Positions 1 to 8,520 of a stretch of DNA of 8,520 nt are shown here, in pieces (the stretch's first letter is position 1; each line of letters starts with the position of its first letter). The notes below the pieces were generated by a model that did no database searches, was not told where the DNA came from, and was given only the letters and a program-made list of their open reading frames with translations. The stretch covers positions 1 to 8,520 of the forward strand of contig JBGPLH010000126.1 in the NCBI GenBank assembly GCA_041486365.1. The letters are read 5' to 3'. The position numbers and the translations under genes were made by a program. This stretch comes from JBGPLH01 sp041486365 [NCBI: Thermodesulfobacteriota bacterium] (lineage in GTDB: Bacteria; JAUYMQ01).

Positions 1-1433
1 ATCAACTTCCCCTCGAGCCCGGCGGGGAGCGGCAGCCCCAGGCTGTAGAGCAGCGTGGGCGCCGTGTCGGCGATGGCGCGGGAGGGGAGCGTGGCGCCGC
101 GCCGGATCCCCGGCCCCATCGCCATGAAGATCCCCTCGTGGCGGTGCATACCGCTCACCTGCCGGCGCGGCTTCACGAGCTGGTCGGAGGGGAGGATGGA
201 GGGATGCCCGCCGTCCCTCAGGTAGAGCGTGATGTCCGGCGCGTCCTCCATCGCGGGACCCGGGTAGGCCTCCTCGCGGATGACGGCGCGCTTGATCACC
301 GTGTCGTTCGTCGCCGGATCGCGCCAGGACAGCAACTCCTCGACGAGCTTCGCCCGGTACGACGGGTATTCCTCCTTCGTGACGCCGCCCCAGCCGCGCT
401 CGGCCTTGCGGATGTAGACGCCGTTGGCGCTGGAGGAGCGCACGTAGGCCCTCGTGCGGGGCCAGTCGACCGTCTTGTAGAAGTCGAAGATGTACGGCGC
501 CGTGAGCTGATCGTCCGGGTTCGGCGGCATCGCGCTCTTCCAGACGAGGTGGCCGCGCTCCGCGAGGAACGCATTGGCGAAGACGATCTCCGACGTGGGC
601 CCCGCCCCGTGGTCGGAAGCGAGGAACACACGGGTCTCTTGACCCGCGATCTCGACCAGCGAGGCGAGGTAGCCGTCCAGCCGGACGAAGTAGTCGATCG
701 AGAGATCGCGGATTCGCTTCTCCCAGTCGGTGTTCAGCGTGTCCTTGAGATCCGGATCGAGGAACCGCCAGCACAGGTGCTGGAGCCGATCCACGCCCTC
801 GAAGACGATCGCGGCGAAATCCCACTGCTCCTCGGTGATGAGCATCTTCGCGACCTGGTACCAGTGCTGGTCCTTGTTCGTGATGTAGCCGACCCAGCGC
901 TCGTACTCCTCCGCCGGAACGCCATCCACCGCCTTGCGGTTCAAATCCATGTTCCAGCTGAACTCCTTCGGGTCGAATCCCGGGAGCGCGATCAGGCGGT
1001 GGTATAGGTCCCGCGGGTACACGCTGGTCCTGAGCTGCCGGGCCAGGATGTAGCCGGGCACCACGAAGCCGTTCACGGGCTTGGCGGGGAACGTCGCCGG
1101 GAAGTTCAGCTGGATCACCCGCCGGCCGTGGCGGTTGGCCATGGAGACGATCGTCTCGCAGCGCACGTCGTTGGACGTGACGAGCCGTCCCCAGGGACCG
1201 TGCTCGTACTCCGTCCAGTGCATGAAGTCGAAGATCCCGTGCGCCCCCGGGTTCATCCCCGTCATGAGCGTGGGCCATGCCAGCGGCGTGATCGGATTCG
1301 GCGTGGAGATCAGATCCGCGCGCACGCCCTCCTCGAGGCAGCGCCCGAGGAACGGGAGCCGTCCCTCGGCGACAAGGTCGTCGAGAAGGGTGAAGGTCAT
1401 GCTGTCCAGGCCGAGCAGAAGCGTGCGAGCCAC
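1..1433 (-). CDS. Alkaline phosphatase superfamily phosphodiesterase/nucleotide pyrophosphatase-like protein, 3' end outside window
   Basis: 477 codons are visible and the C terminus lies beyond the left edge. The GTG start directly abuts the ACP stop codon. The first in-frame ATG (codon 12) would remove the metal ligand D10, so GTG is preferred. Hallmarks of the type I phosphodiesterase group are in order: D10 (LLGLDSMTF), probable nucleophile T49 (PITPLAWPTLMTG), NPGAHGIFDF at 61-70, D215 and H219 (GVDRLQHLCW), D274/H275 (ASDHGAG) and H430 (SGMHRHEGIFMAMGPGI). These fit a two-metal site that hydrolyses phosphomonoesters or phosphodiesters. The N terminus runs straight into the first core strand, with no signal peptide or membrane segment, so the protein is probably cytoplasmic. 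The substrate is unknown. Its position last in a lipid/polyketide operon suggests action on a nucleotide-activated, phospholipid-like or phosphopantetheine-linked intermediate. It may equally be an unrelated co-transcribed enzyme. Confidence 0.88.
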   Translation of the reverse strand, partial: MARTLLLGLDSMTFTLLDDLVAEGRLPFLGRCLEEGVRADLISTPNPITPLAWPTLMTGMNPGAHGIFDFMHWTEYEHGPWGRLVTSNDVRCETIVSMANRHGRRVIQLNFPATFPAKPVNGFVVPGYILARQLRTSVYPRDLYHRLIALPGFDPKEFSWNMDLNRKAVDGVPAEEYERWVGYITNKDQHWYQVAKMLITEEQWDFAAIVFEGVDRLQHLCWRFLDPDLKDTLNTDWEKRIRDLSIDYFVRLDGYLASLVEIAGQETRVFLASDHGAGPTSEIVFANAFLAERGHLVWKSAMPPNPDDQLTAPYIFDFYKTVDWPRTRAYVRSSSANGVYIRKAERGWGGVTKEEYPSYRAKLVEELLSWRDPATNDTVIKRAVIREEAYPGPAMEDAPDITLYLRDGGHPSILPSDQLVKPRRQVSGMHRHEGIFMAMGPGIRRGATLPSRAIADTAPTLLYSLGLPLPAGLEGKL

Positions 1434-1754
1434 CTAGATCTTCCCCCTTTCCGCGAGCGTCCGGTGCAGGAAATCGGCGAGCTGCGAGACCCGGAGGTCG
1501 GTCACGTAGCGCCCGTCCTCGATCAATATCTGTTCGAAGCCCAGATCCTGCTCCTGGTAGACCTCGCCGAGCGTCACGATCAGATGCACCACGTCGATCG
1601 ACTCGAAGGCCAGGTCGCCCACCAGCAGCGTGTCCTGGCCGATCTTCCCCGAGAACTCGATGTCCCAGTCGCTCGTCATGTCCTCGATGACGTCGAGGAC
1701 CTGCTTCAGGACCACGTCCCGACCCACGCCCCTCGGCACCGTTTCCGTGCTCAT
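1434..1754 (-). CDS. Discrete acyl carrier protein (phosphopantetheine-binding)
   Basis: This is a 106-residue acidic helical protein of the acyl carrier family, slightly longer than a typical 75-85 residue ACP. The attachment serine is S52 in the sequence DLAFESIDVVHL, which matches the usual D-S-[IL]-D-x-[VI] pattern at the start of helix II, with Glu in place of the usual Asp before Ser. The stretch after it (about residues 63-90: LGEVYQEQDLGFEQILIEDG, then YVTDLRVSQLADFL) differs from housekeeping AcpP and suggests a specialised carrier. It would carry acyl intermediates as thioesters on the 4'-phosphopantetheine arm, which is probably installed by the PPTase domain encoded just upstream. 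The ATG overlaps the PKS stop (ATGA) and is preceded by a strong ribosome site. The stop TAG abuts the next start. It could carry the chain during synthesis, or receive the finished chain for transfer; the sequence does not decide. Confidence 0.92.
   Translation of the reverse strand: MSTETVPRGVGRDVVLKQVLDVIEDMTSDWDIEFSGKIGQDTLLVGDLAFESIDVVHLIVTLGEVYQEQDLGFEQILIEDGRYVTDLRVSQLADFLHRTLAERGKI
1443..1447 (-). promoter_or_regulatory. Ribosome binding site for the phosphodiesterase gene
   Basis: The minus strand reads AAAGGGGGAAG around 1440-1450, with the G run 9 bases before the GTG at 1433-1431. It is weaker than the ACP gene's site. It overlaps the last codons of the ACP gene, and it supports a GTG start over the downstream ATG at codon 12. 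Confidence 0.45.
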
Positions 1755-4700
1755 GCGTCTTTCCTCCTGCAGGTGGTGATGGCCGCGACGAGGTCCCCCT
1801 CGCGCAGCGTGCGGACTTCCAGCGTCGCGCCCGCCATCTCCGGGCGCAGGCGGGCGGGCTCGCCGCCCACTTCCAGGGCGATCACGCCGCTGTGCTCGTC
1901 AATCTTGCGGGCCACGAGGCCCTTGGGGTTCCAGGCCAGTCCCGTTCCCAGCGCCTTGGCGGCCGCCTCCTTGGCGCACCAGGTGCGGAGCAGCCACTCG
2001 TCCCGCGCGGTCGGCGCGATCCCGTCGAGGATTGCACGCTCCTCCTCGGAAAGCGTCGCGCCGTCGAATCCCTCTGCGAGGGCGCGCGTGCGCTCGGCGT
2101 CGATCCCCACGTCGAGACCCAGGTCGCCGTCGCAGGCCACGCCGACCGCAACGGTGCGACCGTGCGACAGCGCCACGGCGGGGGCGCGTCCCACGCGGTC
2201 GAGCCATGCGCCCCGGGCGATCGGGCGGCCGAGGGAGTCCGCGGCGATCTCGACGTCCGCGGGCAGGACGTCAATCCCGTGCCGTGCGCGCAGCAGATCG
2301 CACACCGCGTCCTTCACCGCGGCGCGCGCGAGCAGCCACTGCGTGCGCCCCCGCGGAGGCCGCCGCAGCGCGCGGAAGGTCTCGCGCTCGGCGCGGCCGA
2401 GGATCAGTGAGGCGAGCTGCTTCTGCCAGATCTGACCGAAGCCCTCGAAGGTCCCCTCGGGCCAGTCGATCACCCGCCGGCAGCGCCAGGCCCCCGGCTC
2501 GAAGAGATGAGCCACGGGACCCGGCCAGGGCTCGCTAAGCCGGATCCCCCGCGACTCGGAGGTGAGCGCGCAGATCGGCGCCGGGAGATCGAACGTGCGG
2601 TCCTCCCAGCCCCGGGCCGTCGCGTGGACGCGGCCGTCTGGGTCCAGGATCGCGAGATCGGCGCGGAGGTGATCGGGGGCCAGCCGCGCGATGAGCGCGC
2701 GTCCCCTGGCGCGCGTGCCGGCCGGGAGCGGCGGCCCGTGGAGCGTGAGGGAGGCCAGCGTGAAGGGGGTCGAGTTGATCCCGCGCACGTCCGTGTCGGC
2801 GTTCCAGAAGGCGACGAGCTGCCCGGCCGCGTCCAGCAGCGCCGGGTCGATGAGGAGGCGCGGCGCCGGGTTCGTCCGGAAGAGGCCCTCGGCCGGGAGC
2901 GCGATCAGGCTGGCCTCCACGCCGTCGTCCCCCGCGCGATCGATCGAGTCGACCCCCTGGAAGGCGGGGCCGTGGAACATCCCGTCGCGGTAGAGCCGCT
3001 CGGGGGTCCATGCGGGGACCCGCTCGTTGGCCAGGGGGAACCCGGCCATCGCGGGCGATTGGGGGAAGTCGTCGGCGAAGAGCGCAACCGCCTCGAAGAG
3101 CAGGGCGGCCCGACCCTCGCCCCCGGCCTGGCGGATCTCGGTGCGAATTTCCCCGGCGCCCTCCCGCCGAGCCTCGATTTCCGCGACGACGGGGCCGTTC
3201 TCGAAGGTGATCCAGCGGTGGGCCCGCGCGTCGCGCATCCCGACGAGGCGGCGCCCGGGCTCGAGCAGCGCGGCCGCCTCCGCGGCCATCTCGATCGTCA
3301 TCGTGAAGGGCATGACGGGGAGCGCGGTGAGGGATGGATCGGTCACCGAGACCCTCCCGCCGAGCGTGTGATCGAGAAGGAACCGGTCCTCCTCCGGGTC
3401 GAGCGTGCGTCGCGAGAGAAGCCGCCGGCCGGGAGTGAACGCGACTATCTCGCCCACGAGGGGCATGCCGTGGGCGTGCGCGCCGGGCGCCTCGAGGTCC
3501 GCCGGGATCCGCGCGGCGTGGACCGCATCGATCCCGGGCGATTCGGCCTGCGCCCCTGCCGCGGGCAATTCCGGGACGCCCTCGTCCAGGAAGGCGTGCA
3601 TCACCTCCCGCTGGATCGCGAGGAAGCGCTCCATGGTGTCGAAGTACGCCCGCATCGCGGGAGCCGTCTCCGCCCGATCGAGGCCGCGCGCGGCAGCGGC
3701 GCCGCCGGCCTCGGGGGACGGGGCTTCCTTCGGCGGCGCGGGCGCGGGCGGCACCTCCCGCATGACGGGAGCTTCCGCCCCCATCGGAGCAGCGGCGCTG
3801 TTGCCCCCCGCAGGACCCGTGGCCGCCGCCGCGGGCGGGCGCAGCCCGGCCGGGAGGCCGTCCGGCCCCCCGAGGTGGAGCAGCGGCAGCGCGAGCGAGA
3901 TGTCCATCGCCGGGGCCTTGCGGGGCTCCGGGGCCGGGCCGTGCACGAGGTCCAGCCGGCGCGGCGCGCGGCGGCGGTAGAGCGCATCGAGTCGCATGGG
4001 CACGCCGTGGGCCGCGGCCATCGCCAGCATGTGGTGGAGCTGCGTGATCCCGGAGCGGCCGGGAAGGTTCGACGCCACGGCGAGGAAGGGGCGCTTGCGG
4101 AGGATGTCGTTCACGAAGGACGTCAGGTTCCCCCGTGGCCCGACCTCCACGAAGATCCGCACGCCGTCCTCGTACATGGCCTCGATCGTCTCCCGGAATC
4201 GGACCGGGCGGATCCACTGCTCCAGCGCCACGCGCCGGGCCTCGGAGGCTTCCGTCGGATAGGGGGCCGCCGTGGCGCAGGACCACAGCGTCGCCTCGGA
4301 GCGCGGCGGGTCGATGGGCGGGAACGAGTCGGCGAGGAACCGGTAGGCGGGCTCGAAGAGCGCCGTGTGGTAGGGGCGATCGAAGGGGAGGGTGGTGCAG
4401 ATCGCGCCCCCGGCCCGTAGCGTCGCCATCGTCCGCTCCGCCAGCGGCGGGTCGACCGACAGCACGACCTGGTAACGGCAGTTGTCCATCGCGACGAGGA
4501 TCCTTCCATCCGATCCCTGGACAAGTGATTCGATCAAGGCCGGCTCGGCGCCGCCCACGGCGATCAGCACGACCTGCGGCACGTCCTTCGTCTGCGAGAG
4601 GGCCAGGTACACCTTGTTCACGTTCCGGATCATCCGGATCAGGGACGCGTCGTCGTCTGCCCGCGTCGCGCCCGCCGCCAGCAGCGCCGGATACTCGCCC

Positions 4701-6733
4701 GCGCTGTGGCCGGCGATGACCTTCGGGCGCAGGCCCAGTTCGCCGAGCAGCGTGGCCATGGCGTGGCCGGCCACGAAAACCGACTCCACCGCGCCATCCA
4801 TCTGCCACAGGATCCGCTCCTGCTCCTCGAGGGTCCGGTCCTCTCCCGGCATCGGCGGCGGGAAGATGTACTGCGACGGTGTGTACCCGCGCGGGTGATC
4901 AGCGAACGCGCGATCCATCAGGTCGAAGCGCGAGCGCACCGACGGGAAGTGCATGCACAGATCGGCGAGCATGTTCGGGTACTGCGATCCCTCGCCGGGG
5001 AAGAGGAACGCGAGCTTGCCGCTTTCGTGCAGGGGCGCGTCGACGAAGTGGATCCCCCCCCGGTCCTTGATCCGCGCGCAGGACGGATCGGCGAGGCGTC
5101 CGAGGGCGTGGTCGAGCTTGCGCGCGAGCTCGGCGGTGTCGGTCGCGACCACGGCGAGGCGGAGCCGGCCGTCGAGGTCCGCGTTCACCGTGTACGCGAC
5201 GTCCCGCAGCGGCGTCTCCGGCGCGCGCTCCAGATAACGCTCGAGCAGCCTTCCGCGGGCCATCAGCGCCTCCCGCGTGTCGCCCGCGAGGATCACCACC
5301 TCGGAGTCCCACGTGCGATCGAGGCTCATCGTGGCGTGCTCGTCGGCCGCGGCGTGCTCCTCGAGGATCGCGTGGGCGTTGATCCCGCCGAATCCGAAGG
5401 CGTTCACCCCGGCGCGCCGCGGCGTCTCTCCGCCGTGGATCCAGGGGCGCGTCTCCGTGTTGAAGTAGAAGGGGGTCTTCTCGATCTCGAGCTTCGGGTT
5501 GGGATTGTCGAGGTGGATCGTCGGCGGCAGCACCTTGTGGTAGAGCGCCAGCGCGGCCTTGATCGTCCCCGCGGCGCCCGAGGCCGGGAGGAGGTGGCTG
5601 ATCATCGACTTGACGGATCCCAGCGCGATGCGCGGCGCGCCCCGCCGCTCGCCGAAGACGCGGCGCAGGGCCTGGATCTCCGTCTCGTCCCCGACCGGCA
5701 TCGCCGTGCCGTGCGCCTCGATGAGCCCCACGGTCGCCGGATCGATCCCGGCCGCCTCGTATGCGCGCCGGAGCGCCAGCTCTTCGCCTTCCACGCGCGG
5801 CGTGAGGATCGCCCGCGCGCGCCCGTCGCTCGAGGTTCCCACGGAGCAGAGGAGGGCGTACACCCGGTTGCCGTCCCGCTCCGCGTCCTCCAGGCGCTTG
5901 AGGAGCAGCATCCCCGCCCCTTCCCCCAGCATCGTGCCGTCGGCCTCCCGGTCGAAGGGGCGCAGGTGCGGTTTGTGCGACAGGGCGCCCATGTCGGCGA
6001 ACATGTTGTGGATCGGAGCCGGCGTGGACACCTGGACGCCGCCCACGAGCGCGGCGTCGCAGCGGTGATCGCGGAGATCCTGGAGCGCCTTCTCCATCGC
6101 GATGATGGAGGATGCGCAGGCGCCGTCGATCGTGTGGTTCACGCCGCGGAGATCGAAGCGATTGGCGATGCGCCCCGACACGAGGCTCGGTGCCATCCCG
6201 GCGGCGGTCTCCGGGGTGATGGGCGGCACGCACTGCGTGAGGCGCTCGCGGATCGCCCGCAGCTCCTCCTCGGTGTGCTCGGGGTGCAGCTCGCGCAGGA
6301 GCCTCAGGAACTGGTCGATCGCGATCTTGTGCTGGAACTGGATCAGCACGCCCCGGTTGGTGAAGGTGCCGCGCCCGAGGATCACCTCGGTCCGCTCCCG
6401 GTTGAGCGGGAGATCCGGGACGCCGGCGTCCAGGAGCGTCTGGTGCGCCACCTCGAGCGCGAGGAATTGATCCGGCTCGGCGCCGTCCACGCTGCTCGGC
6501 ATGATTCCGAACTCGAGCGGATGGAACTTCGCGAGATCCCCGATGTACCCGCCGCGCACGCAGTACAGGCCCGTCTGCTCCCGCGTCTCGAGGAAGGGCT
6601 CCATCCCCCGGCTCGGGGGCGGGTCGCTCACCGCGTCCACCTTGCGGACGATGTTCTCCCAGTACGTCGCCACGTCGGGCGCCTTGGGAAAGAGGCACGC
6701 CATGCCGACGATCGCCACGGGCTTCGCGTTCAC
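1751..6733 (-). CDS. Iterative polyketide/fatty-acid synthase, KS-AT-DH-PPTase
   Basis: This is a complete 1660-residue cytosolic synthase. The GTG start at 6733 is chosen because the KS begins at once (KPVAIVGMACLFP), a purine-rich ribosome site precedes it, and it overlaps the upstream stop. The frame stays open for 290 codons upstream, but that stretch is antisense-like shadow inside the neighbouring gene. Ketosynthase, 1-460: C206 (DGACASS), H341 (EAHGTAMPVGDE) and K375/H380 (GSVKSMISH) are all present. A KS-to-AT linker follows. Acyltransferase, about 571-885: nucleophile S677 (GHSAGE), likely carboxylate-binding R703, and H789 (RPYHT); this pattern fits malonyl-CoA loading. An Ala/Pro-rich linker (about 930-1025) and a helical segment (1026-1050) come next. 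Dehydratase, about 1088-1375: H1122 (FLLDHTLGG), D1301 and Q1305 (LLDAAGQ). PPTase, about 1440-1655: SH at 1523-1524, metal ligands D1545/E1547 (GIDAE), and WCAKEAAAK at 1585-1593. There is no carrier, KR, ER or thioesterase, so it must work with partners in trans. It resembles Hgl, Pfa and enediyne synthases, but I cannot assign a product. Confidence 0.93.
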   Translation of the reverse strand: MNAKPVAIVGMACLFPKAPDVATYWENIVRKVDAVSDPPPSRGMEPFLETREQTGLYCVRGGYIGDLAKFHPLEFGIMPSSVDGAEPDQFLALEVAHQTLLDAGVPDLPLNRERTEVILGRGTFTNRGVLIQFQHKIAIDQFLRLLRELHPEHTEEELRAIRERLTQCVPPITPETAAGMAPSLVSGRIANRFDLRGVNHTIDGACASSIIAMEKALQDLRDHRCDAALVGGVQVSTPAPIHNMFADMGALSHKPHLRPFDREADGTMLGEGAGMLLLKRLEDAERDGNRVYALLCSVGTSSDGRARAILTPRVEGEELALRRAYEAAGIDPATVGLIEAHGTAMPVGDETEIQALRRVFGERRGAPRIALGSVKSMISHLLPASGAAGTIKAALALYHKVLPPTIHLDNPNPKLEIEKTPFYFNTETRPWIHGGETPRRAGVNAFGFGGINAHAILEEHAAADEHATMSLDRTWDSEVVILAGDTREALMARGRLLERYLERAPETPLRDVAYTVNADLDGRLRLAVVATDTAELARKLDHALGRLADPSCARIKDRGGIHFVDAPLHESGKLAFLFPGEGSQYPNMLADLCMHFPSVRSRFDLMDRAFADHPRGYTPSQYIFPPPMPGEDRTLEEQERILWQMDGAVESVFVAGHAMATLLGELGLRPKVIAGHSAGEYPALLAAGATRADDDASLIRMIRNVNKVYLALSQTKDVPQVVLIAVGGAEPALIESLVQGSDGRILVAMDNCRYQVVLSVDPPLAERTMATLRAGGAICTTLPFDRPYHTALFEPAYRFLADSFPPIDPPRSEATLWSCATAAPYPTEASEARRVALEQWIRPVRFRETIEAMYEDGVRIFVEVGPRGNLTSFVNDILRKRPFLAVASNLPGRSGITQLHHMLAMAAAHGVPMRLDALYRRRAPRRLDLVHGPAPEPRKAPAMDISLALPLLHLGGPDGLPAGLRPPAAAATGPAGGNSAAAPMGAEAPVMREVPPAPAPPKEAPSPEAGGAAAARGLDRAETAPAMRAYFDTMERFLAIQREVMHAFLDEGVPELPAAGAQAESPGIDAVHAARIPADLEAPGAHAHGMPLVGEIVAFTPGRRLLSRRTLDPEEDRFLLDHTLGGRVSVTDPSLTALPVMPFTMTIEMAAEAAALLEPGRRLVGMRDARAHRWITFENGPVVAEIEARREGAGEIRTEIRQAGGEGRAALLFEAVALFADDFPQSPAMAGFPLANERVPAWTPERLYRDGMFHGPAFQGVDSIDRAGDDGVEASLIALPAEGLFRTNPAPRLLIDPALLDAAGQLVAFWNADTDVRGINSTPFTLASLTLHGPPLPAGTRARGRALIARLAPDHLRADLAILDPDGRVHATARGWEDRTFDLPAPICALTSESRGIRLSEPWPGPVAHLFEPGAWRCRRVIDWPEGTFEGFGQIWQKQLASLILGRAERETFRALRRPPRGRTQWLLARAAVKDAVCDLLRARHGIDVLPADVEIAADSLGRPIARGAWLDRVGRAPAVALSHGRTVAVGVACDGDLGLDVGIDAERTRALAEGFDGATLSEEERAILDGIAPTARDEWLLRTWCAKEAAAKALGTGLAWNPKGLVARKIDEHSGVIALEVGGEPARLRPEMAGATLEVRTLREGDLVAAITTCRRKDA
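1763..1767 (-). promoter_or_regulatory. Ribosome binding site for the acyl carrier protein gene
   Basis: The minus strand reads GGAGG, 8 bases before the ATG at 1754-1752, within the last codons of the PKS gene. It is a near-perfect Shine-Dalgarno match and the strongest in the window. This fits a need for many carrier molecules per synthase, which is an inference. Confidence 0.7.
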
Positions 6734-8520
6734 GGGCGTCCCCTCTCCGACGGCGGCAGCAACGACTCGTCCCAGCCGACGAGGCGGTTGAGGGCCGCCG
6801 CGCAGGTGAACTCGAAGCCGTCGATCGCGAAGGCCGTCCTTCCCTCCGGAGTGAGGCAGAGGATGTCCGACCGGACGTTCGCCTCGCCGGATCCCTCGAG
6901 GACCCGGAGCGAGACGGTGAGCGGCTTCGCGGGATCGAAGGCGTAGCGGCGCACGGCCCGCAGGCGGGAAGGCAGGCCGGTCATGTCGTGGATCGCGCGC
7001 ACCCAGAGCAGCGCGAGCTGAAGGCACCCATCGACGAGCACCGGATCGATTGTCCAGCGGGCCGCGCCGCCGGTCCCCTCGAGGCAGGAGGACGGCCGCG
7101 AGGGCGCGATCTCCGAGAGGATCCCCTCTTCGGAGACGCCGAGCACGCGGCGCACGCACTGGAACACGGGTCCATGGAAGAGCCACTTCCGATACGCGTC
7201 GCCGATGGGAATCGGATAGGGCGGCAACGTCGCGAGGAAGGGATGGCGCGCCGCCGGTCCCTCCGTGAGGCGGGCGCCGAGCAGGATCGTCGCGCGGTAG
7301 CACGCGCGGTCGGGGCGGCCCGGCTCGGTGATCTCGACGGCGGCCTCGATGGCGTCGGAGGCCTCCGAGGGCGCGTGGGTCTTCGGTCGGACCGCGATGC
7401 GGATCGGGAAGGTGGCCTGGGCGAGCGTGATGCCGCGCAGCACCCGCACGTCGCGGGCGCCGGTCACGACCAGGTCGGGCCAGGCCTTCTGCGCCGCCTC
7501 CGCCATGAGCGCGAGCCCGGCCGCGGCCGGCAGCACCGGCTTTCCGTCGAGCTTGTGGTGATGCAGGTAACGGTCGAACGCGGGATCGAGCACGCGCAGG
7601 CACTCCATCTCGCCGCCCCGGCCCGGGACGAGCCGTTCGCGGTGAAGGAGGGGCGTGACGAGGGTTTCCGCCGGCGCGGCCTCGCCGCCCGGGAGATCCC
7701 GCCAGGGCCCGTCGCCGATGACCAGGACCGACCCGCGCGCCTTCGGCGCTCCGATCTCCGCCAGCAGCGCCTCGCAGCCCGCCGCCGGGGGGATCACCCG
7801 CACGCCCCGCTCCGCGAACTGCCGCTTCACTTCCTCGCCGGCCATTCCCACGCTATCCCAGGGCCCCCAGTCCAGCGCCACGACGCGCCCCTCCCAGCGC
7901 CGATCCAGGAACGCCGCGAGGTGGTTCAGCACCTCGTTCGCGGCGCCGTAATCGGCCTGCCCGCGGTTGCCGAAGGCGCCGGTCACGCTGCTCATGAAGA
8001 CGAGGAAGCGCAGCCCCTCCGGGCGCAGCATGCGCGCGAGCAGGAAGGCCGAATCGGCCTTCGTGTCGAAGACGCGGTCGAAGGACTCGGGGCTCTTCTC
8101 CTCGAGGAGCTTGTCCTCGATCACGCCCGCTCCGTGGATCACCCCGTCGATCCGGCCGTACGTCGCGTAGGTCTCCTCGATCACCGCGCCGAGCGCCGAG
8201 GCGTCGCGGGCGTCCGCCTGACGGTAGACGATCCGCGCTCCCGTCCCGCGCATCGCACGGAGGTTCTCGCGGATCTCCCGCGCGCCCAGGGTGCGCCCGA
8301 TCTCCGCCTCGATGGCGCGAGGGGTCGGGCGCGCACCCGCGATCTTCGCGCGCTGGAGCAGCGCGGCGCGCATGGCGGCGGGGCTCCCGGCGGAAGCCAG
8401 ATCCGGCGGCTCGTCCTCCGGCGGAAGGGGCGAGCGGCCGAGCAGCACGATGGTGGGCTTCGCACGCTCGGCCAGCGTGCGGGCGATGGCCGCGGTGATC
8501 CCCCGGGCGCCGCCGGTCAC
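6730..8520 (-). CDS. Multidomain polyketide/PUFA-type synthase, C-terminal part (KR-DH), 5' end outside window
   Basis: This is the C-terminal 596 residues of a larger synthase; the frame is open at the right edge, so the true start and the N-terminal domains are missing. The first GTG in view lies inside the Rossmann motif (TGGARGIT, residues 2-9) and is not a start. Residues 1 to about 270 form an NADPH-dependent ketoreductase. Visible catalytic candidates are K154 (FDTKADS), S178 (FMSSVTG), Y191 and N195 (DYGAANEVLNH). Residues about 30-92 are a long helical insert after the second strand, which I associate from memory with PUFA-synthase-type KRs. Residues about 300-575 form a double-hotdog dehydratase: H322 in YLHHHKLDGKPVLP is the likely catalytic His, and D497 with Q501 (DPVLVDGCLQ) lie in the second hotdog. 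No domain follows the DH. KR before DH is the PfaA/PksE order, not the DH-KR order of modular PKS. The stop overlaps the next gene's start by 4 bases. KS, AT and carrier domains upstream are expected but not seen. Confidence 0.9.
   Translation of the reverse strand: MTGGARGITAAIARTLAERAKPTIVLLGRSPLPPEDEPPDLASAGSPAAMRAALLQRAKIAGARPTPRAIEAEIGRTLGAREIRENLRAMRGTGARIVYRQADARDASALGAVIEETYATYGRIDGVIHGAGVIEDKLLEEKSPESFDRVFDTKADSAFLLARMLRPEGLRFLVFMSSVTGAFGNRGQADYGAANEVLNHLAAFLDRRWEGRVVALDWGPWDSVGMAGEEVKRQFAERGVRVIPPAAGCEALLAEIGAPKARGSVLVIGDGPWRDLPGGEAAPAETLVTPLLHRERLVPGRGGEMECLRVLDPAFDRYLHHHKLDGKPVLPAAAGLALMAEAAQKAWPDLVVTGARDVRVLRGITLAQATFPIRIAVRPKTHAPSEASDAIEAAVEITEPGRPDRACYRATILLGARLTEGPAARHPFLATLPPYPIPIGDAYRKWLFHGPVFQCVRRVLGVSEEGILSEIAPSRPSSCLEGTGGAARWTIDPVLVDGCLQLALLWVRAIHDMTGLPSRLRAVRRYAFDPAKPLTVSLRVLEGSGEANVRSDILCLTPEGRTAFAIDGFEFTCAAALNRLVGWDESLLPPSERGRP
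6740..6748 (-). promoter_or_regulatory. Ribosome binding site for the KS-AT-DH-PPTase gene
   Basis: The minus strand reads GGAGAGGGG, 6 bases before the GTG at 6733-6731. It lies inside the last codons of the upstream synthase gene. Together with the GTGA stop/start overlap it fixes the start of the downstream gene and suggests translational coupling. Confidence 0.6.

Follow-up and report, generated by a model that had tools for sequence, protein, structure and literature searches.

We analyzed an 8,520-nt stretch of contig JBGPLH010000126.1 from a Thermodesulfobacteriota bacterium (the window), which carries four minus-strand genes that all run in the same direction. One of these (1751-6733, minus strand) encodes a 1660-aa protein that combines ketosynthase (KS), acyltransferase (AT), dehydratase (DH) and phosphopantetheinyl transferase (PPTase) domains. 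Judging from its sequence, this KS-AT-DH-PPTase protein is probably the second subunit of a two-protein iterative secondary-lipid synthase of the polyunsaturated fatty acid (PUFA) synthase family, its partner being the ketoreductase (KR)-bearing PfaA-type protein encoded directly upstream. The parts, their order, their conservation, the catalytic residues and the pairing can all be read in the window and its relatives. The gene has a GTG start that overlaps the upstream stop, and it overlaps both the upstream KR-DH gene and the downstream acyl carrier protein (ACP) gene by 4 bases each; therefore, the operon appears to be one transcription unit.

The first-pass annotation had described a single protein with intact KS, AT, DH and PPTase motifs, and both the Pfam matches and the catalytic residues agree with this. 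The KS domain (KS2) and its C-terminal extension occupy residues 4-514 (5192-6724, minus strand like all features below; Pfam 6.9e-54 and 1.2e-33), with the KS proper at residues 4-408 and the extension reaching residue 514. It is followed by the AT domain (AT2; residues 576-880, 4094-5008; Pfam 6e-14), which contains GHSAGE and has RPYHT in place of the AFH motif, and by a Pro/Ala-rich linker (residues 900-1090, 3464-4036) that includes the helix-like motif YFDTMERFLAIQREVMHAF and no carrier. The DH domain (DH2; residues 1091-1376, 2606-3463) matches Pfam PS-DH at 1.4e-13, above the curated cut-off, with PKS_DH_N below its own cut-off, and the PPTase core lies at residues 1542-1627 (1853-2110; Pfam ACPS 9.1e-13). 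The Cys/His/His set of the KS, the Ser/His of the AT, the His/Asp of the DH and the GIDAE and WCAKE motifs of the PPTase are all kept. Against the PUFA synthase PfaA model TIGR02813 the protein scores 580.9, which does not reach the curated cut-off of 1010.1. Pfam and our own profiles found one intact KS and no second KS-like domain, so the didomain of KS and chain-length factor (CLF) that marks PfaC and HglC is absent.

Neither a carrier nor a KR was detected on this protein, which is what had been claimed for it. There was no Pfam match to PP-binding anywhere in the 1660 residues at E<=1, and no KR match at E<=1; the KR result was taken from Pfam, and the NCBIfam whole-protein list (best 25 of 35 families) was not used for absence. 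A carrier hidden in linker residues 900-1090, on which the first-pass annotation had staked its claim, was looked for and rejected: neither Pfam (E<=10) nor NCBIfam (E<=1) gave a match there, and our own ACP profiles, made from window and related sequences and run at maximum sensitivity, scored no more than 0.9 bits on the whole protein and less than zero on the linker. A frame error or lost gene pieces were also rejected, since several relatives share the same single open frame; in the only exception, locus L004, the gene is divided into overlapping frames. The KS-AT-DH-PPTase order recurs in relatives, including records labelled Gammaproteobacteria and Streptomyces, and is therefore neither chance nor an assembly artefact.

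The same annotation had placed the KR and a second DH on the preceding protein, and Pfam bears this out. The window contains the C-terminal 596 aa of the partner (6730-8520, its 5' part lying beyond the window), with the KR (3.1e-35) followed by a DH (DH1; PS-DH 6.4e-14). This fragment aligns to TIGR02813 positions 2003-2580 (NCBIfam), and the KR Ser/Tyr/Lys and DH His/Asp are all retained in the alignment. Thirteen loci include the 5' side of the KS-AT-DH-PPTase gene (the window, L001, L003, L004, L005, L056, L036, L037 and L039-L043). A KR-bearing PfaA-type protein is encoded directly upstream on the same strand in 12/13, the window counted; in L004, the thirteenth, the KR-bearing open reading frame (ORF) is also upstream, but two ORFs, one of PqqD-HlyD type and the other bearing a DH, separate it from the KS gene. 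Where enough sequence is available, the partner reads NMO(ER)-KS-AT-ACP(1-3)-KR, with the DH present or absent, ER denoting the enoyl reductase. The NMO/ER domain was found in 7/13 loci (L003, L005, L056, L037, L040, L042 and L043); in the remaining six, the window among them, the partner sequence ends before the position of that domain. The L003 partner, the nearest complete one, scores 1413.6 on TIGR02813 and so passes as a member of the PfaA family. A DH precedes the KS gene in 8/13 loci, either on the partner or, in L004, as its own ORF. In the other five (L005, L056, L037, L040 and L041) no partner DH was seen, a result with which Pfam concurs for all except L056, which was judged by our own profiles. 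The sole DH seen in these five loci is thus on the KS-AT-DH-PPTase protein, and both proteins should cooperate if the operon makes a dehydrated chain.

One scan of genome contigs returned four loci, of which L003, in a gammaproteobacterial metagenome-assembled genome (MAG), holds the whole operon. Its first gene encodes a 2908-aa NMO-KS-AT-ACP-ACP-KR-DH protein by Pfam, with a third ACP seen by our own profiles. The genes that follow encode a 1650-aa KS-AT-DH-PPTase protein, the two synthase genes lying 29 bases apart, a 101-aa ACP and a 530-aa phosphodiesterase, beyond which are alpha/beta hydrolase, HlyD adaptor and ABC/FtsX genes. L001 and L003 are two closely related operon copies on separate contigs of the same MAG (G001), either paralogues or mixed strains. 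Where comparison is possible, the closest relative of the window is L002, in a MAG labelled Deltaproteobacteria, with identities of 69% in the AT, 55% in the DH-PPTase part, 74% in the ACP and 74% in the available part of the phosphodiesterase. Its genome, G002, was the sole genome returned for its phylum, and the window may therefore derive from a poorly sampled lineage.

The same order turned up on two Streptomyces plasmids in a plasmid search, and a domain scan with our own profiles found KS-AT-DH-PPTase proteins in L036, L037, L039, L040, L041, L042 and L043. Six of these proteins were checked with Pfam, L043 lying outside that check; the L036 PPTase fell under Pfam detection, and the L037 KS is degenerate. 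Matches to a DH-PPTase profile (E<=1e-30) were found in 5/297 genomes of the phylum of G003, in 9/398 of the phylum and 2/13 of the family of G001, and in 1/1 of the phylum of G002. These counts include the centre genomes themselves (G003, G001, G001 and G002, respectively) and four genomes (L038, L044-L046) in whose matched protein no KS was found. Locus counts in this report are not independent, because several loci are near-copies (L005/L056, L042/L043 and L003/L047).

The phylogeny sets the second KS apart. KS2 forms one clade of 10 rows (support 97/93), separate from 22 PfaA/ArsA-type KS and from the three PfaC-type KS rows used as outgroup. This tree omits two FabF rows, three CLF rows, the degenerate L037 KS2 and the short L009 KSC; a first tree that included the FabF and CLF rows had long branches and poor resolution, and L001 and L056 are absent from both. 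In the residue table, from which L056 was omitted (as it was from that of the AT) and in which the single-domain KS of L004 was counted as KS2, the Cys-His-His set is intact in 11/12. Given the separate clade and the intact catalytic set, KS2 is neither a dead CLF nor a KS of the PfaC type. Within the clade, one subclade has a phosphodiesterase gene in 7/7 loci (about 5 kb downstream in L039), and a second (L005, L040 and L041) has a glycosyltransferase gene instead (3/3). DH2 groups with the DH of separate DH-PPTase proteins (Methylosinus, Beijerinckia) on the ArsD-type side of a tree that omits L043 and L056. A 99/99 branch divides it from DH1, and the two DHs of the window are therefore not recent duplicates. 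A single clade of all DH2, AT-DH and ArsD rows was not rejected (p 0.43), but the tree does not establish one, since the PfaC-type DH of L009 sits on the same side. A helix-like motif behind the AT is common to the window, the first gene of L003 and a few others; as it came from pattern matching and only a minority of the rows have it, it was not used as proof of duplication.

The two ATs of the operon also differ. In the alignment, AT1 of the partner carries Arg in 22/22 rows at a column that we take to be the malonyl-binding residue, and AFH in 20/22, whereas AT2 has the Arg in 0/18 and AFH in 0/18. The AT of PfaC-type KS-CLF-AT proteins likewise shows 0/4 for both. HAFH, a string related to AFH, is described as a malonyl signature (PMC6164871). 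The catalytic Ser and His of AT2 are kept in 18/18 rows, with the GHS spelling in 16/18, and the window AT2 scores 96 bits on FabD, against 195 bits for the L003 partner protein.

A separate ACP gene (106 aa, 1434-1754, FESID phosphopantetheine site) does follow, as had been claimed, overlapping the PPTase-bearing gene by 4 bases; this account was incomplete, as the partner protein of the relatives has 1-3 further ACPs. The phrase 'no carrier' therefore describes one subunit of a pair. The discrete ACP gene has no Pfam match and only weak NCBIfam ACP matches far below cut-off (best E 0.0016). When its structure was predicted (8 sequences, mean pLDDT 77), most of the PDB matches were to acyl carrier proteins, with probability near 1 and no E-value <0.001. 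A discrete ACP lies downstream in 13/15 loci that include the 3' end (the window, L002-L005, L036, L040-L043, L047, L048 and L056). The last gene of the window (3-1433, 477 aa, its 3' end beyond the window) encodes a type I phosphodiesterase of the alkaline-phosphatase superfamily (PF01663, 2.4e-33). It had no PDB sequence match at E<=0.01, and its model is of low confidence (mean pLDDT 66), with phosphonoacetate hydrolase, SPAP and NPP1/NPP-type enzymes as the nearest folds; for these two reasons, a head-group or release role for this enzyme can only be a guess.

From these features we infer that the two proteins work jointly, and that the product may be a long-chain envelope or exported lipid. 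The upstream subunit would carry the growing chain and perform malonyl loading, condensation, ketoreduction and enoyl reduction, and the second subunit would prime the carriers through its PPTase and provide its dehydratase in trans. The second active KS probably handles chain lengths other than those of the first, as the two KS domains of prokaryotic PUFA synthases are reported to split chain lengths between them (PMC9702510). The putative non-malonyl-type AT2 would transfer the acyl chain between the ACPs of the partner and the small discrete ACP, much as the VinK AT acts between a standalone ACP and a polyketide synthase (PKS) loading ACP (PMC6164871). The discrete ACP might then pass the chain on to an enzyme for head-group addition or release, which would be the phosphodiesterase here and the glycosyltransferase together with a hydrolase in the sister clade. 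It is possible, although we hold this only tentatively, that such operons form a distinct CLF-less two-subunit class in which AT2 is an ACP-to-ACP shuttle handing finished long chains from the ACPs of the partner to the small ACP. An alkaline-phosphatase-superfamily enzyme or, in a sister clade, a glycosyltransferase would then turn them into a lipid with a head group, to be exported by an ABC system.

Several observations weigh against this interpretation. The window cuts the partner, so that its ACPs and ER are deduced from relatives. In L037 the KS2 is dead (Cys, His and His lost), and no KS was found in the AT-DH proteins of L038 and L044-L046; the second KS is therefore dispensable in kin. 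AT-DH proteins with no KS found make up 5/18 of the AT2 rows, and 6/18 rows, including the window, carry an Arg beside the malonyl-Arg column where the alignment is gapped, which makes non-malonyl specificity only one possibility for the AT of the window itself. The discrete ACP was not found in L037 and L039 within a 19.5 kb stretch and is therefore not obligatory. PPTase motif residues are lost in L036 and L048, and the L004 PPTase ends short of the GID and KE motifs, although all three loci keep the rest of the operon; in L003 and L047 Q replaces E in GIDxE. The role of the PPTase may therefore be replaceable.

Other explanations were considered for the same parts. The discrete ACP might be a starter loader, with AT2 moving an unusual starter from the ACP to the synthase and not the product off it. 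We regard this as possible but doubtful: the VinK precedent pairs a standalone ACP with a loading-module ACP (PMC6164871), and the ACP and AT2 genes adjoin, but no starter-making gene lies within the window, and the gene past the ACP encodes a phosphodiesterase (in kin, a glycosyltransferase or hydrolase), which fits product finishing better. It is rather unlikely that AT2 duplicates the malonyl transfer of the first AT, with the small ACP as an additional carrier for extender units and the second subunit merely adding more of the same activity. The universal Ser and His, the frequent GHS, the Arg of the window next to the malonyl-Arg column and the 96 bits on FabD would suit such an enzyme. 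However, that score is about half that of the L003 partner, AFH is missing from every AT2 row and present in nearly all of AT1, and 12/18 AT2 rows have Arg neither at the column nor beside it.

Enediyne PksE is a single chain with ACP and KR alongside KS, AT, DH and PPTase. The operon might encode a polyene-type iterative PKS like PksE or RerA/RerB, building a conjugated polyene on a carrier in trans. The domain kinds of this iterative KS-AT-DH-PPTase toolkit are the same, and Rhodococcus RerA/RerB, which makes polyenes, is likewise divided, into a KS-AT-ACP-ACP-KR-DH chain and a second protein with the PPTase (PMC11563203). Nevertheless, we consider a polyene product improbable. RerB differs in consisting of the PPTase, an unknown domain and a thioesterase (PMC11563203), and KS2 falls outside the KS1 group that includes the Rhodococcus opacus KS-AT-ACP3-KR-DH protein. 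The NMO/ER-type domain on the partner in 7/13 loci (the other six ending before that position) suits reduced chains, and, compared by domain order, the window chain has neither the ACP nor the KR of PksE.

The two-subunit secondary-lipid synthase that we favor has counterparts among known systems, and the suggestion that the operon is a different split of the PUFA-synthase and secondary-lipid toolkit is supported, except that it is not a lone synthase, given the adjoining KR-bearing partner. With PfaA-E it shares the family of the partner (by the L003 score) and an AT without AFH and Arg, as in PfaC-type KS-CLF-AT rows, and the two-KS division of labor there serves as a model; it differs in lacking a CLF, in its fused PPTase and in a KS2 outside the PfaC KS clade. 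The premise that PUFA synthases keep the PPTase separate does not hold generally. Shulse and Allen report that the PPTase lies within pfaC of Pseudoalteromonas DS-12 (PMC3098273). For Aquimarina and Flavobacterium, a 2026 paper describes a fused pfaDA together with a PPTase-bearing pfaBC and likens the arrangement closely to the uncharacterised Renibacterium salmoninarum synthase (PMC13291983).

Shulse and Allen (2011) divided secondary lipid synthases into Types A-T and list Type M (Frankia, Renibacterium, Actinosynnema, S. avermitilis) without a known product (PMC3098273). The window operon is likely a CLF-less variant of this fused PfaDA/PfaBC-PPTase (Type M-like) kind, likened by description and not by sequence, as the single genome-contig scan brought no locus from any of these four. 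The AT, DH and PPTase on one second protein are shared (Pfam, window), and an ER-KS-AT-ACP-KR type partner is seen in seven relatives, that of the window being cut before the ER; the window differs by its discrete ACP and phosphodiesterase and has no genes of PKS-non-ribosomal peptide synthetase type. The likeness comes from text descriptions, the exact domain order of the published second protein being drawn in figures. The claim of a little-described class thus stands in part: we found no characterised synthase of this architecture and no identified product for the kind, but a similar two-protein arrangement has already been sketched in print. The literature search covered titles and abstract openings, with domain figures and supplements outside its reach; among the papers listed there was no characterised synthase with the KS-AT-DH-PPTase order, and no paper matched the exact architecture strings.

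The operons on the Streptomyces sp. NBC_00984 and NBC_01243 plasmids (WP_331749608, WP_327311893; 34.7% identity over 76% of the query) share the NMO-KS-AT-ACP-KR protein, the KS-AT-DH-PPTase protein and then the ACP. They differ in that a hydrolase, a glycosyltransferase and a methyltransferase replace the phosphodiesterase, and no partner DH was seen. The Type P phenolic-lipid synthases (Beijerinckia indica, a listed Type P; the similar Methylosinus C49; and Azotobacter ArsA/ArsD) also have an NMO-KS-AT-ACP-KR protein, and their separate DH-PPTase protein aligns with the C-terminal half of the window protein. In Type P no KS-AT precedes the DH-PPTase, no discrete ACP was found, and one or two intervening genes are annotated as 3-oxoacyl-ACP synthase III C-terminal domain, which we take to be type III PKSs; no type III PKS lies between the synthase genes in the window (4-base overlap) or L003 (29 bases).

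The secondary lipids identified so far number only a handful (PMC13291983). In this operon the toolkit is divided between two proteins and includes an intact second KS, a differing second AT and a dedicated ACP, which makes the roles of the second KS, the second AT and off-loading separately testable. In kin, the genes nearby encode a phosphodiesterase or glycosyltransferase, a hydrolase and an HlyD/ABC exporter, which points to a lipid that is exported or placed in the envelope, by a logic comparable to that of heterocyst glycolipids and cyst phenolic lipids. Hydrolase, HlyD, ABC or FtsX genes are found near L003 and L040 and in part near L004, L041, L042 and L047.

With regard to the PPTase, the LGRP of the window fits the x(G/D)xP motif of Types M-T, and its VALSH has A at the S position of hShxH (P1b'), which VSMAH of L002 and others fit (motif definitions from PMC3098273). 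The PUFA-type P0 motif was not seen in the aligned window PPTase. AT-DH proteins beside the same partner kind occur at L045 4272-7274, L046 8154-11156, L038 5894-8473 and L044 7250-11149, in which our own profiles found no KS and no PPTase; in L045 and L046 the PPTase, with the PUFA-type FNxSH motif, is encoded by a gene of its own. These proteins suggest a stepwise gain or loss of the KS and PPTase.

Some further variants were observed among the relatives. The L037 protein (8891-13474) may be a decayed or re-purposed version, both ATs there lacking the usual GHS spelling and the discrete ACP not having been found. HlyD-type adaptors are fused behind about 500 residues at L042 15572-18085 and L004 3847-6369; the fused region has a PqqD-like domain in L004 and no Pfam match in L042. 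A 946-aa protein with a methyltransferase domain is encoded near the operon at L048 5002-7842, and the start of L039 (1-537) resembles it by eye.

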